IMG/VR virus record: IMGVR_UViG_3300027721_000085
Location: 1-22,229 of that record
DNA: 22,229 nucleotides
From: a virus
Strand: one strand, 5' to 3'
In this document: piece by piece, positions 994-10,806 of the stretch
Position numbering within the stretch: the first letter of the stretch is position 1
Layout of the letters: each line of letters starts with the position of its first letter
Notes under the pieces: model-generated
What the model was told of the DNA's origin: nothing
Databases searched by the model: none
What the model saw: the letters and a program-made list of their open reading frames with translations, nothing else
Translations under genes and position numbers: made by a program

Positions 994-1001
994 TACATTT
1001 G
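994..1001 (+). promoter_or_regulatory. Bacteroidetes -7 promoter box TACATTTG
   Basis: TACATTTG is a full match to TAnnTTTG. It lies directly after the stop of the previous gene and only 4 bases before ATG 1006. In Bacteroidetes transcription starts a few bases past this box, so the mRNA may begin at or next to the ATG. No TTG was found at the usual -33 spacing, which lowers confidence. Confidence 0.45.
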
Positions 1002-2605: not shown

Positions 2606-3956
2606 GAGGAAAGCACACGCAAAAGAATTGCTTAGACGAGAGTTGTCAAGACGTTCACTATGGGAGTTTTGCCGTTATTATGATCCTATTTTCTTTCATA
2701 ACAGACCTTTTCTCAAGGAAATAGCGGACGCATTCCAAGAAATAGAGCAAAAAACAATCAAAAGTTTATCCGTTTCAATGCCACCAAGAGCGGGAAAATC
2801 TTATATTACGTCATTATTTTGCGCCTGGACCATTGGGCGTAACCCTGACAAGTCAGTAATGCGGAATACGTGTACAGCTACGCTATTTCTTAAGTTCAGT
2901 TATGATGTTCGGGCAATCGTTAAATCGGACAAATACCGTAAAGTTTTCAACAATGTAACCTTGTCAGATGACAAATCTAATCTTCAAGGATGGAATACCA
3001 ATACTAGCAAACAAGTAGGTTATTTTGGTGCTGGTGTTGGAGGTACAATTATCGGGTTTGGAGCGTCAAACGTTGCAATAACAGATGACCTTTATAGAGG
3101 TATTGAAGACGCATTGTCCGACACCGTTAACGACCGAATCAATCAATGGAAGGAATCAACACATGATTCACGATTTGAGAGCGGTTGCGCAAGGATTGAC
3201 ATAGGAACACGTTGGAGTTTAAACGACGTTATAGGGCGTAATATTGAGTCAAAGATATACGATAAATCCATTATTGTAAGCGCCATGAATGAACAAGGGG
3301 AGTCATTTTGTGAGGACGTATTGACAACAGCTGAATATATCGAAAAAAAGAAACGTACAGCACCCGAAATATGGGAGGCTGAATATCAACAACAACCCGT
3401 TGACATGAAAGGTAGGCTATTTAATAACCTTAATTTCCTATCAAAAGACGAATTCGCAGAAATCACGAAATCAAACCCAATTGAAGGTTGTATTGGCTAC
3501 GTGGACGTTTCTGACCAAGGCACTGATTACACGTCTGTTGCGATTTGCGCTGTAATCAAGAAACAGCTGTTTATAGTTGACTATTTAATGACGCGTGATA
3601 ACACCGATATTACGATCCCTCAAACCGCTGCGTTATTGGACAAATGGAAGGTTACATATTGTCGGGTTGAATCAAATTCGATGGGTGCAATGTTTAGCCG
3701 TCAATTACAAACACAGACAAAAACACGAATACTTCAGGTCCATAACACGCAAAACAAGATAACCAGGATTATAATGAGTTCAGCACACGTCATGAATTCA
3801 ATGATTTTTGTGCGTAATGGGGACAATCAAAGCGAGTTATTTATACAAAATGTACTAAGTTTTAGCAAGGAGGGAAAAAATAAAAACGATGACGCTCCAG
3901 ATTGTTTGGCTGGATTAAGTATTTTTGTACAATCAATGTTTAAAAATTTATCGTAA
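2598..3956 (+). CDS. terL: Terminase large subunit
   Basis: The motor that cuts concatemeric DNA and pumps it into the prohead. The ATPase domain shows Walker A MPPRAGKS (residues 61-68), a Walker B ending in ITDD (161-164) and an IGTRW coupling motif (202-206). The C-terminal RNase H-like nuclease domain shows YVDVSDQGTD with D303, then E358 in YCRVESNS, and DDAPD (431-435), which together form the expected metal-binding acidic set. At 452 aa it is full length for a terminase of this type. The second half resembles the phage terminase C-terminal family seen in phages of many hosts. It overlaps the small subunit gene by 8 bases and ends in the promoter box before the portal gene. Confidence 0.93.
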   Translation: MNERKAHAKELLRRELSRRSLWEFCRYYDPIFFHNRPFLKEIADAFQEIEQKTIKSLSVSMPPRAGKSYITSLFCAWTIGRNPDKSVMRNTCTATLFLKFSYDVRAIVKSDKYRKVFNNVTLSDDKSNLQGWNTNTSKQVGYFGAGVGGTIIGFGASNVAITDDLYRGIEDALSDTVNDRINQWKESTHDSRFESGCARIDIGTRWSLNDVIGRNIESKIYDKSIIVSAMNEQGESFCEDVLTTAEYIEKKKRTAPEIWEAEYQQQPVDMKGRLFNNLNFLSKDEFAEITKSNPIEGCIGYVDVSDQGTDYTSVAICAVIKKQLFIVDYLMTRDNTDITIPQTAALLDKWKVTYCRVESNSMGAMFSRQLQTQTKTRILQVHNTQNKITRIIMSSAHVMNSMIFVRNGDNQSELFIQNVLSFSKEGKNKNDDAPDCLAGLSIFVQSMFKNLS

Positions 3957-3961
3957 CTTTG
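3954..3961 (+). promoter_or_regulatory. Bacteroidetes -7 promoter box TAACTTTG (portal)
   Basis: TAACTTTG (followed by C) matches TAnnTTTG and overlaps the terL stop codon. ATG 3984 is 22 bases downstream, leaving a short leader ending in AAAACAGA. The nearest TTG (3925-3927) is 26 bases upstream, longer than the usual 19-23, so the -33 element is doubtful. This could start the head gene transcript. Confidence 0.45.
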
Positions 3962-6205: not shown

Positions 6206-7405
6206 ATGGAAAATTTAACACCAGAACAAGTAGTTGAAAAAATCAACACTAAGTTCAATGAAACGTTGGCAACAATGCCAACAAAAGCAGACCTAGACGG
6301 TCTTAAAAGTGATGTTGATGCCCTTAAAGGATTAGAGGCTAAATCTCAAGAAATCGAAAAAGCAATAGCTAGATTTGAGGGTAAAATGGAAGCAATGGCT
6401 GAAAAAGGATTCAAGTCTGAGCGTAAGCCACGTTCACTTGGTGAGGCAATCTCTCAAGCGTATGTTGCTAACATCGACAAAATCAAGCAAACAGCTGAAA
6501 AGGGCGGAATGATGACATTAGAGACTAAAGCTCTTTATGACACAACAATCGATGGTGACTATACGGGTAACATCGCACTTTCTACATTAGAGGCTGGAGT
6601 TTCTACAATTGCTCGTCCAATCATTAAGATTCGTGACATTGTGAACATGGGTACAACAGCGTCTAAATTCGTTACTTACATCTCTCAAAGCGTTCAAACA
6701 GCGTCTAGTTGGATTGATGAAGCTGGAGTGAAGATTTCAGGTCAACCGTCTTATGAAGAAATTTCTGAAGAAGTTAAGAAAATTGCTGGAACTGTTAAGA
6801 TTTCTAAGGAAATGTTGGCTGACCTTGCATTCGTTCAGTCTGAAATCAATAGAGACTTAATGGCATCTGTTGACCAAGCAATCGAAGACGCTTTATTGAA
6901 TGGAGCAGTTGGTGGAATCAATGGTATTTTAACTAACTCGGTTACTTTCTCAGCTGGTACATTTGCTGGAACTGTTGTAACTCCAAACATCTCAGATGTT
7001 ATTAGAGTGGCAATTGCACAAATACAAAACGCTAACTTTGAGCCTACACACGTTGTATTGAATCCTGAGGACGTTGCTGCAATGCAATTGACTAAGTCGT
7101 CAACAGGAGAATACACTTACCCTATGTTCTTAATGGATGTAAATAGAGTGGCTAATCTTGTTGTTGTTTCTACAACTAATATGGTTGCAGGTACTTTTTT
7201 AGTAGGTGATTTCACGAAGTCAAATGTTAGAATGAGAGAGTCAATGAATGTACAAGTAGGTTATGTAAACGATGATTTCCAAAGAAACATGGTTACTATC
7301 CTTGCTGAAGCTAGATTGGTTCAATACGTTAAAGCAAACGATTATCCAGCATTCGTTGACGGAACAATCGCAACTGCAATTGCTGCATTGGCTGTTGCAC
7401 CATAA
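6206..7405 (+). CDS. Major capsid protein (HK97 fold)
   Basis: The building block of the icosahedral head. Residues 1-75 are charged and helical (coiled-coil-like, KINTKFNETLATMPTKADL) and correspond to the delta/scaffold domain removed by the protease, so cleavage probably falls near residues 95-115. The rest is the HK97 fold, with the E-loop and spine region around IVNMGTTASKFVTYISQS and the P-domain segment DLAFVQSEINRDLMASVDQA. The A-domain pattern FLMDVNRVANLVVVSTTNM and a terminal FQRNMVTILAEARLVQYVKA are hallmark C-terminal features. At 399 aa it is standard length. A strong terminator follows the stop. Confidence 0.93.
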   Translation: MENLTPEQVVEKINTKFNETLATMPTKADLDGLKSDVDALKGLEAKSQEIEKAIARFEGKMEAMAEKGFKSERKPRSLGEAISQAYVANIDKIKQTAEKGGMMTLETKALYDTTIDGDYTGNIALSTLEAGVSTIARPIIKIRDIVNMGTTASKFVTYISQSVQTASSWIDEAGVKISGQPSYEEISEEVKKIAGTVKISKEMLADLAFVQSEINRDLMASVDQAIEDALLNGAVGGINGILTNSVTFSAGTFAGTVVTPNISDVIRVAIAQIQNANFEPTHVVLNPEDVAAMQLTKSSTGEYTYPMFLMDVNRVANLVVVSTTNMVAGTFLVGDFTKSNVRMRESMNVQVGYVNDDFQRNMVTILAEARLVQYVKANDYPAFVDGTIATAIAALAVAP

Positions 7406-7417
7406 TTAAAAAATAAC

Positions 7418-7445
7418 GGGGGTTGATATTCTTAACCCCCCTTTT
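7418..7445 (+). terminator. Intrinsic terminator after the capsid gene
   Basis: GGGGGTT (7418-7424) pairs with AACCCCC (7434-7440), and the inner G-T and A-T pairs extend the stem around a small loop. A C and then TTTT follow. The stem is very GC-rich against AT-rich surroundings. It would end the head transcript, or reduce read-through so that capsid mRNA outnumbers the genes downstream. The -33 TTG of the next promoter lies in this hairpin. Confidence 0.85.
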
Positions 7446-7452
7446 AAATTTG
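7423..7452 (+). promoter_or_regulatory. Promoter TTG-N19-TAAATTTG overlapping the terminator
   Basis: TTG at 7423-7425, a 19-base spacer, then TAAATTTG at 7445-7452 is a complete match to the Bacteroidetes promoter model. ATG 7457 follows after four bases (CACA), so transcription probably starts at or within a few bases of the start codon. The -33 element lies in the terminator stem and loop, so the two signals share DNA. Confidence 0.65.
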
Positions 7453-7456
7453 CACA

Positions 7457-7759
7457 ATGGAAAAAAGAACTCGTAAAAAAAAGGATATTGACGTAAATAT
7501 AAACGTGAATAATGCTGAATTGAAAGTTAAAAGAGATATTAAAGGAACACAAATAGACCTAGATACTCGAATAATTGACGTTCATATTGACAAAGATTCT
7601 AGTGGCGTTCACGCAACGATTGAAATTGATGACAAGGTTATTTATGAATTTGTTGGAAATGGAGAATCAAAGCATTTACCAAAAGGAGTGATGTTTAAAA
7701 TTAGTGGTGAAATGCTAAAATATTTCATTAAAAAAGGTTTCGGAAAACTAAAAAAGTAA
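7457..7759 (+). CDS. Small basic beta-rich protein after the capsid gene (100 aa)
   Basis: A lysine/arginine start (MEKRTRKKKD) is followed by alternating charged and hydrophobic strands (IDVNINVNNAELKVKRD, IDLDTRIIDVHID, HATIEIDDKVIYEFVG) and a basic C-terminal helix (MLKYFIKKGFGKLKK). Such alternation predicts a beta sheet. It lies between the capsid gene and the head-tail adaptor gene with its own promoter, so it is probably made late and may be part of the virion, a decoration or inner-head protein, or a DNA-binding protein. I do not recognise a named family. The next gene starts 4 bases later. Confidence 0.7.
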   Translation: MEKRTRKKKDIDVNINVNNAELKVKRDIKGTQIDLDTRIIDVHIDKDSSGVHATIEIDDKVIYEFVGNGESKHLPKGVMFKISGEMLKYFIKKGFGKLKK

Positions 7760-10298: not shown

Positions 10299-10330
10299 AA
10301 AAGGGAGTGATTAAGTTCATTCCCTTTTTT
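10299..10330 (+). terminator. Intrinsic terminator after the tail-tube region
   Basis: AAAAGGGAGTGA (10299-10310) pairs with TCATTCCCTTTT (10317-10328) over 12 pairs, one of them G-U, around a 6-base loop (TTAAGT). The right arm is part of a run of six T (10325-10330). It would end the transcript that includes the major tail gene. Confidence 0.85.
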
Positions 10331-10334
10331 GTTG

Positions 10335-10342
10335 TAACTTTG
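10335..10342 (+). promoter_or_regulatory. Bacteroidetes -7 promoter box TAACTTTG
   Basis: TAACTTTG lies 4 bases after the terminator T-run and 5 bases before ATG 10348, the same layout as at 7445-7457. A TTA, not the preferred TTG, is found at 10311-10313, 21 bases upstream. The start of transcription should fall at or near the ATG. Confidence 0.5.
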
Positions 10343-10347
10343 TAATC

Positions 10348-10806
10348 ATGGGACTAATGGACACAGTTTTAGGGGATTTAATGGAACGAACAATACATAT
10401 TTCACAAAAAGAGATATGGTTTTACGTCTTTTATGACACTAAATTCAAAACTGAAGTACTAGATTTCATTCGTATTGACCAATTATTCGAGCAAGGGGTA
10501 AACGAAGATGACAAGGTTATTGGTACTTATTCAATCATTACGGAAATGGAATATAATCCAACAAAAGTGGCGGGAAGTCATTACACGCTTTTTGATACGG
10601 GTGATTTTTACCGTAGTTTTATGCTTCAAGTATTGCCTGATGGCATAGTTATAAACGCAGACGGATTAAAAGATGACGGAACGGACTTATTGGAAAGATT
10701 TACGGACAAAATTTTGGGGCTTACTGATGAGAGTAAAATCAAACTTATTAAGAAAGTCAAAGACAAATATTACGAAACAACACTTCGATTATTACGAGGG
10801 GATTGA
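10348..10806 (+). CDS. Conserved tail-assembly-region protein (152 aa)
   Basis: An N-terminal helix (MGLMDTVLGDLMERTIHISQKEI) is followed by strand-rich DFIRIDQLFEQGV, then SHYTLFDTGDFYRSFMLQVL and a helical, charged end (LTDESKIKLIKKVKDKYYET). The TLFDTGDFYRSF block is the clearest feature and resembles the core of HK97 gp10-like tail completion proteins; I have no firm assignment. It starts the block leading to the tape measure gene, right behind a promoter. Its last 80 bases or more overlap the next gene in the +1 frame, so they could act as a frameshift pair in the position of the G/GT tail chaperones. Confidence 0.6.
   Translation: MGLMDTVLGDLMERTIHISQKEIWFYVFYDTKFKTEVLDFIRIDQLFEQGVNEDDKVIGTYSIITEMEYNPTKVAGSHYTLFDTGDFYRSFMLQVLPDGIVINADGLKDDGTDLLERFTDKILGLTDESKIKLIKKVKDKYYETTLRLLRGD

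Follow-up and report, generated by a model that had tools for sequence, protein, structure and literature searches.

A compact candidate joint of hairpin, Bacteroidota-type -7 box and start codon behind the capsid gene of a phage and its relatives

The stretch of DNA analysed here (the window) is a virus record of 22,229 bases in which the genes for terminase, portal, S78 protease and an HK97-type capsid follow one another; the nearest named matches of its capsid protein belong to Flavobacterium phages, at 35% identity. Between the capsid stop codon and the next ATG lie 51 nt, which hold a terminator-like hairpin, a short T-run and a putative promoter box (Table 1). We refer to these elements, together with the ATG, as joint 1. 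Direct reading gives the arms GGGGGTTGA (7418-7426) and TTAACCCCC (7432-7440) around the loop TATTC, a single C (7441) between the stem and the T-run, and CACA (7453-7456) between the box and ATG 7457. The hairpin folds with -14.3 kcal/mol (z = -3.06). A TTG within the 5' arm (7423-7425) lies 19 nt upstream of the box, and from this TTG to the G of the box the distance is 30 bp. An earlier note on this DNA had described the same layout, with a box that begins at the last T of the terminator, a start codon four bases past the box and 30 bp used by both signals, and it is correct to the base.

Table 1. Positions of the joints, further boxes and neighbouring genes in the window.
Feature	Position	Strand	Evidence or remark
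Hairpin-free box TACATTTG, 4 nt upstream of ATG 1006	994..1001	+	same box-to-ATG spacing
TAACTTTG, 22 nt upstream of portal ATG 3984	3954..3961	+	could drive the portal-protease-capsid unit with a leader
Gene of the major capsid protein (HK97 fold family), before joint 1	6206..7405	+	PF05065 E=8e-31; phrog_10 major head protein E=6.8e-38
Joint 1 hairpin, terminator-like, 9 bp stem, 5-nt loop	7418..7440	+	sequence, fold, relatives
Short T-run of joint 1, overlapping the -7 box by one T	7442..7445	+	sequence
Joint 1 putative -7 promoter box, Bacteroidota type, TAAATTTG	7445..7452	+	exact TAnnTTTG match; relatives
Uncharacterised 100-aa protein gene, basic N-terminus	7457..7759	+	transcript predicted to begin at or beside the ATG
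Joint 2 terminator hairpin, 12 bp, T-run to 10330	10299..10328	+	fold, tail score
Joint 2 putative -7 box TAACTTTG, 5 nt upstream of ATG 10348	10335..10342	+	exact TAnnTTTG; relatives
Gene of a phrog_6195 tail protein, putatively transcribed from joint 2	10348..10806	+	E=2.3e-17

The first gene behind joint 1 encodes a 100-aa protein whose start codon and basic N-terminus are conserved in 18 aligned sequences (the window and 17 homologues). An in-frame stop is present at 7445, only ATT-TGC-ACA stands before ATG 7457, and there is no upstream in-frame ATG, GTG or TTG that could serve as an alternative start. The protein has no match in Pfam, PHROG or NCBIfam, a search of the PDB with its model (poor, pLDDT 63.8) gave nothing at E below 1, and in profile searches the next three genes likewise had no family match; the "connector genes" announced for this region are thus not what the searches found. 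The 100-aa family that stands behind the capsid gene in these phages has predicted beta strands.

A second joint lies further downstream. The segment 10290-10345 folds with -17.1 kcal/mol (z=-4.75), and its hairpin ranks first among the window's terminators when stem length and tail are compared. The earlier note, which placed its joint at 7418-7459, had missed this stronger copy (10299-10350) as well as the hairpin-free box before gene 1006. With two such joints in the window, the genes from 7457 to about 10281 would be bracketed as one unit. The 55 nt before the capsid gene contain no TAnnTTTG.

TAnnTTTG alone occurs 39 times in the window against 32.5 expected, which is no enrichment, and the + strand has three matches to TTG-N17-23-TAnnTTTG. 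Scans of the window with sigma-70 and terminator patterns gave no excess over chance; the sigma-70 consensus, which is uninformative for Bacteroidota, was set aside. By contrast with the number of boxes, their placement goes beyond chance: TAHHTTTG stands 4-6 nt before the ATG in 3 of the 20 ATG-started window genes (1006, 7457 and 10348), while dinucleotide shuffles gave a mean of 0.027 such genes and reached 3 in none of 5000 trials.

To follow joint 1 beyond the window, viral contigs were scanned with the capsid protein, and 80 of 115 loci were kept, with identities from 99 to 60%. The same scan of 84,980 bacterial and archaeal genomes returned one relative only (L100, 57%). This sequence, RFQY01000125.1, is filed under a Rhodobacteraceae MAG yet has a Bacteroidota-like box, and it was possibly binned wrongly. 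Leaving out three viral relatives that end inside the gene, and adding L100 and the window, we obtained 79 capsid-downstream loci with 50 distinct spacers. In 76 of the 79, the capsid gene is followed by a hairpin with 4 or more GC pairs (the exceptions are L080, L081 and L100), which in L043 and L044 is only a 4-bp stem without a T-run. Across 24 distinct stems pairing is kept, with 3 to 5 pair types per inner position; the covariation shuffle is circular for the percentage paired, the arms having been picked for pairing, and only the variety of pair types counts. The MAFFT alignment misplaced some stems.

The box is conserved alongside the hairpin. TAnnTTTG is exact in 28 of the 50 distinct spacers and present with at most one mismatch in 41; in these 41 the ATG is conserved and follows the box after 4 nt (30 spacers) or 5-7 nt (11 spacers). 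Nine spacers have no box at this threshold, and among them the L036-L042 group and L068 carry the variant CAAATTAG. A shifted box, TAATTTGC, is found in L043-L044 and L074, and L045-L047 have the hairpin and an A-rich leader with no box. The reverse also occurs: the three loci that have no hairpin keep a box, TAAATTAG in L080 and L081 and TAAATTCG in L100. Each module can therefore be lost separately, as would be expected if hairpin and box have two functions. The variant CAAATTAG/TAAATTNG replaces TAAATTTG in L036-L042, L068, L080, L081 and L100, at 4-8 nt before the ATG, and may mark another host or sigma factor. The composite element, which the earlier note had proposed to look for behind the capsid genes of relatives, is thus present in close and distant ones.

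Joint 2 is even more uniform. A homologue of the product of gene 10348 was found in 17 of the 19 contigs searched, and each of these shows the hairpin, a run of T6-T9 and an exact TAnnTTTG, with the ATG 3-5 nt past it. All 16 distinct sequences (window included) match the box exactly, and the six fixed letters of the box are invariant in a 13-row alignment.

The two joints differ in how well they resemble terminators. Both have the stable GC-rich hairpin that serves as a criterion of intrinsic terminators. The tail score is -3.2 at joint 1, with 4 T in the first 8 nt, versus -5.6 at joint 2, with 7 T of 8; the medians among relatives are -3.2 (poor in nearly all) and -5.7 (full), respectively. 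The GC stem is 6-12 nt from the box at joint 2, and 3 or 4 nt from it in 33 of 47 joint 1 spacers. The poor U-tract makes read-through likely at joint 1, suggesting that the terminator there is probably leaky, and termination may be weak or absent; joint 2 is expected to stop transcription well. What had been called a "strong terminator" behind the capsid gene is therefore strong in its stem and not in its tail.

Nor did the upstream TTG prove to be the element that links hairpin and promoter. It had been claimed to serve both signals, as the -33 motif of the promoter and as part of the stem. A TTG is found at 17-23 nt in 24 of the 41 joint 1 spacers with a good box and in 0 of 16 at joint 2, and L026 retains stem and box without it (shorter loop side). 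We rejected the common -33 TTG as a working link of both signals, since relatives have lost it or carry it out of place. A Flavobacterium johnsoniae study calls the -33 motif "much less evident" than the -7 box (PMC6847099); being weak there too, TTTG/TTG at -33 is no firm defining feature of the Bacteroidota housekeeping promoter. What remains of this claim is a hairpin resembling a terminator that has DNA in common with a -7 box of Bacteroidota type. Common to both are the T-run with the T that opens the box, and the region upstream of the box that elsewhere serves as spacer and -33.

We then asked where else the box stands close to a gene start. Across the window and L002-L100, with 464 distinct gene starts, the box lies at 4-6 nt before the ATG in 43 cases, at 7 nt in 1, at 8-13 nt in none and at 14-40 nt in 30. 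In the window and pieces of ten relatives, the box is found 3-8 nt before 7 of 11 terminator-preceded genes versus 6 of 415 others, counts that include related sequences and for which the gene finder did not call the joint 2 gene in most contigs, probably owing to its overlap with the neighbouring gene. A first scan compared box-to-ATG distances of 3-6 and 13-16 nt in viral contigs, keeping CCCC and TTTTA fixed, and gave a weak contrast: among the matches listed, a hairpin and an ORF of at least 75 aa were present in 18 of 27 and 6 of 22, respectively. Several of the 13-16 nt cases have Shine-Dalgarno-like leaders, as judged by eye, and are probably from other phyla. An earlier scan also placed the hairpin-box-ATG joint before DNA primase genes (L107 and L109).

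The viral contigs were also scanned for terminator and box without reference to an ATG (pattern CCCTTTTTTN{0,5}TAACTTTG). This gave at least 120 stretches, of which 114 were used and 86 remained distinct after removal of duplicates and sites near contig ends; the gene start was taken as the first ATG opening an ORF of at least 60 aa. Among the matches listed, a hairpin ending in a C-run is present at 60 of the 86 usable sites. At 35 of these 60, again among the matches listed, a gene starts 3-5 nt past the box; the start is at 8 nt in one and at 12-60 nt in nine, and 15 have no gene start within 80 nt. With a permuted box, GTTACTTA, the whole collection yielded 45 stretches, 31 usable and 16 with a hairpin, and in none of these 16 did a gene start at 3-5 nt. 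For the matches listed, with related sequences and gene-less sites included, 35/60 versus 0/16 gives a Fisher p = 1e-5; restricted to sites with a gene within 80 nt, the comparison is 35/45 versus 0/2 (p = 0.06), the control having few genes.

Nineteen of the 35 close starts belong to the phrog_6195 type, mostly by N-terminal sequence, with three confirmed by PHROG (L138-type, L388 and L438). Judged mostly in the same way and among the matches listed, about seven independent families stand behind the 35 starts: MazG-type pyrophosphohydrolases, phrog_6195, an unknown gene after the L117-type capsid gene, and four or so others. The L117 capsid protein has 25% identity to that of the window. Between the capsid gene and later genes of L117 (1373-2904) are an unknown 185-aa gene and, by eye, a glycosyltransferase-like start. 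A gene whose product begins MCFEKL (L367, L369, L436 and L439) resembles the MCYE gene of L416 and has the same terminator and box, with its ATG at 13 nt versus 4 nt in L416, a possible natural leadered/leaderless pair.

No joint was found in the named Bacteroidota phages snusmum9-1, phi17:1, P12024S and FCL-2; in phi17:1 a terminator-like hairpin follows the capsid gene, but the ATG after it lacks a box. Nine loci of cultured Bacteroidota phages around homologues of two downstream genes, two followed in sequence and seven by annotation only, likewise gave no joint; by annotation the seven have almost no room before the gene, and the gap in TCUEAP2 contains neither hairpin nor box. In the cultured Tenacibaculum phage JQ (L518, 490-528), a terminator-like hairpin with T7 and without a -7 box stops 2 nt before the ATG of a phrog_6195-like homologue, placing a terminator against a start codon.

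Bacteroidota members generally lack Shine-Dalgarno sequences, and of the 26 listed gene starts in the window, 1 is preceded by an SD-like 4-mer. From this, the promoter type and the best named relatives, the host is probably a member of the Bacteroidota. In F. johnsoniae many transcription starts lie 4-5 nt past the -7 box (PMC6847099), and on this basis leaderless mRNAs are predicted at the joints. The suggestion of a "possibly leaderless" mRNA thereby gains ground as a prediction, the ATG of gene 7457 standing 4 nt past the box. By analogy, the 5' end would be the A of ATG at joint 1 (4 nt spacing) and the A of ATG or the base before it at joint 2 (5 nt spacing), while relatives with 6-8 nt spacing are expected to have leaders of 1-4 nt. 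The same source gives 87% of F. johnsoniae leaders as longer than 10 nt, and two other studies report 5.5% leaderless mRNAs in F. psychrophilum (PMC9723704) and about 3.7% of 5' UTRs under 10 nt in B. thetaiotaomicron (PMC7366714). By the F. johnsoniae and F. psychrophilum figures, leaderless starts appear exceptional in such hosts.

Taken together, we consider it likely that the element is a compact joint of two transcription units, in which a leaky stop, a -7 box and a leaderless start serve a Bacteroidota-type host RNA polymerase. What we observe is the sequence with its spacing, its conservation and the compensatory changes of base pairs, and from these we infer termination, initiation and leaderless translation. 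A polymerase finishing the portal-protease-capsid unit, which TAACTTTG before the portal gene would start, would meet the GC hairpin and short U-tract of joint 1, and part of the transcripts would be released; the leak would arise because the box occupies half of the usual U-tract. The housekeeping sigma factor would read TAAATTTG with little help from a -33 motif, and transcription would start 4-5 nt past the box, on or next to the A of ATG, as the published starts suggest. The resulting leaderless mRNA would cover the gene of the 100-aa protein and the genes behind it, until joint 2 with its full U-tract closes this unit and opens the tail unit. The net effect would be a transcript level that drops past the capsid gene and an independent start for the next unit, and the leak at joint 1 would fit a step down from capsid to genes needed in fewer copies.

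The alternative that survives best, though we judge it unlikely, is that joint 1 is an intercistronic hairpin within a long mRNA, which blocks 3' exonucleases and stabilises the capsid mRNA or weakly attenuates transcription, with TAAATTTG merely an A/T-rich translation start region. The poor joint 1 U-tract of nearly all relatives would fit this, as would the hairpin with an A-rich leader and no box in L045-L047. Moreover, start codons of F. johnsoniae show a Kozak-like preference (PMC6847099), which the A at -3 (ACAATG) suits, so that a read-through mRNA would be translatable. Against it, the six fixed letters of the box are kept in all 16 joints 2, and the box within one mismatch in 41 of 50 joints 1, while neighbouring bases drift; the spacing of box and ATG also agrees with the published distance from -7 box to transcription start. 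The permuted box beside the same terminator, with no gene start at 3-5 nt, and the full U-tract of joint 2 also argue against it.

Termination and initiation could also be physically coupled, by hand-off or roadblock, with the output of the downstream unit following that of the capsid unit; we regard this as doubtful. In a hand-off, the active site would halt short of the next start, by about 10 bp at joint 1 to 16 bp at joint 2, and the polymerase, already over the next -7 box, would rebind sigma and restart instead of leaving the DNA. In a roadblock, a polymerase waiting on the box would make the weak U-tract of joint 1 terminate. It is less probable that a phage-encoded or alternative sigma factor reads the box and that the joints act as late-gene switches: the CAAATTAG/TAAATTNG variant is common to several divergent loci, as if it reflected another specificity, yet most boxes are the plain housekeeping consensus. 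A chance meeting of hairpin and box with no joint role, in AT-rich phage DNA whose T-runs favour TAnnTTTG, would agree with the unremarkable number of boxes and the flat pattern scans of the window, but is extremely improbable and already contradicted by the comparative data, given conservation among relatives whose capsid identities range between 99% and 57%, the second site, present in 17 of 17 contigs, occurrence before unrelated genes and the shuffle test.

Returning to a compact joint of transcription units as the preferred reading, a search of the open-licence full-text literature on Bacteroidota and their phages found no leaderless promoter joined to a terminator in this way; as far as that literature shows, the parts are known and the arrangement is new. 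If start and stop sites are as predicted, the joint would be a short natural part that connects two phage operons in about 50 bp, and its predicted leaderless mRNAs would form a class of their own in a phylum that has few of them. The rule of hairpin, T-run, TAnnTTTG, 3-7 nt and ATG could also be used in annotation, splitting uncultured Bacteroidota phage genomes into transcription units.

Compared with the Bacteroidota housekeeping promoter (sigma-ABfr; -7 TAnnTTTG, -33 TTTG), the joints have the same box and the same distance from box to predicted start; they differ in that the -33 motif is not conserved, a terminator hairpin fills that region, and most are leaderless by prediction. With intrinsic (Rho-independent) terminators they share the GC hairpin and T-run, joint 2 being canonical, whereas joint 1 has a shortened T-run and a promoter box starting 4 nt past the stem. 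In T7-like phages the terminator T-phi stands after gene 10. Joint 1 resembles it as a putative stop directly behind the capsid gene that would lower downstream expression, but T7 has its own polymerase and the joints fuse the promoter to the stop. Distances from terminator to closest start in T7, T3 and SP6 range from 14 to 1742 bp in PMC11347151, whose authors also argue that a bacterial polymerase, once it has released its RNA, can be recycled to whichever promoter is nearest; for the joints we estimate about 9-16 bp from RNA 3' end to next start, taking the 3' end as 7-8 nt past the stem, which makes their layout a natural extreme of the measured distances. Post-termination recycling (PMC6978380, PMC6978322) has been shown in vitro for the E. 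coli polymerase; there, as in the joints, a terminator lies very near a sense promoter, a layout that favours reinitiation, and, if our reading is true, the joints would offer a natural template, its terminator and sense promoter almost touching, on which polymerase recycling could be tested.
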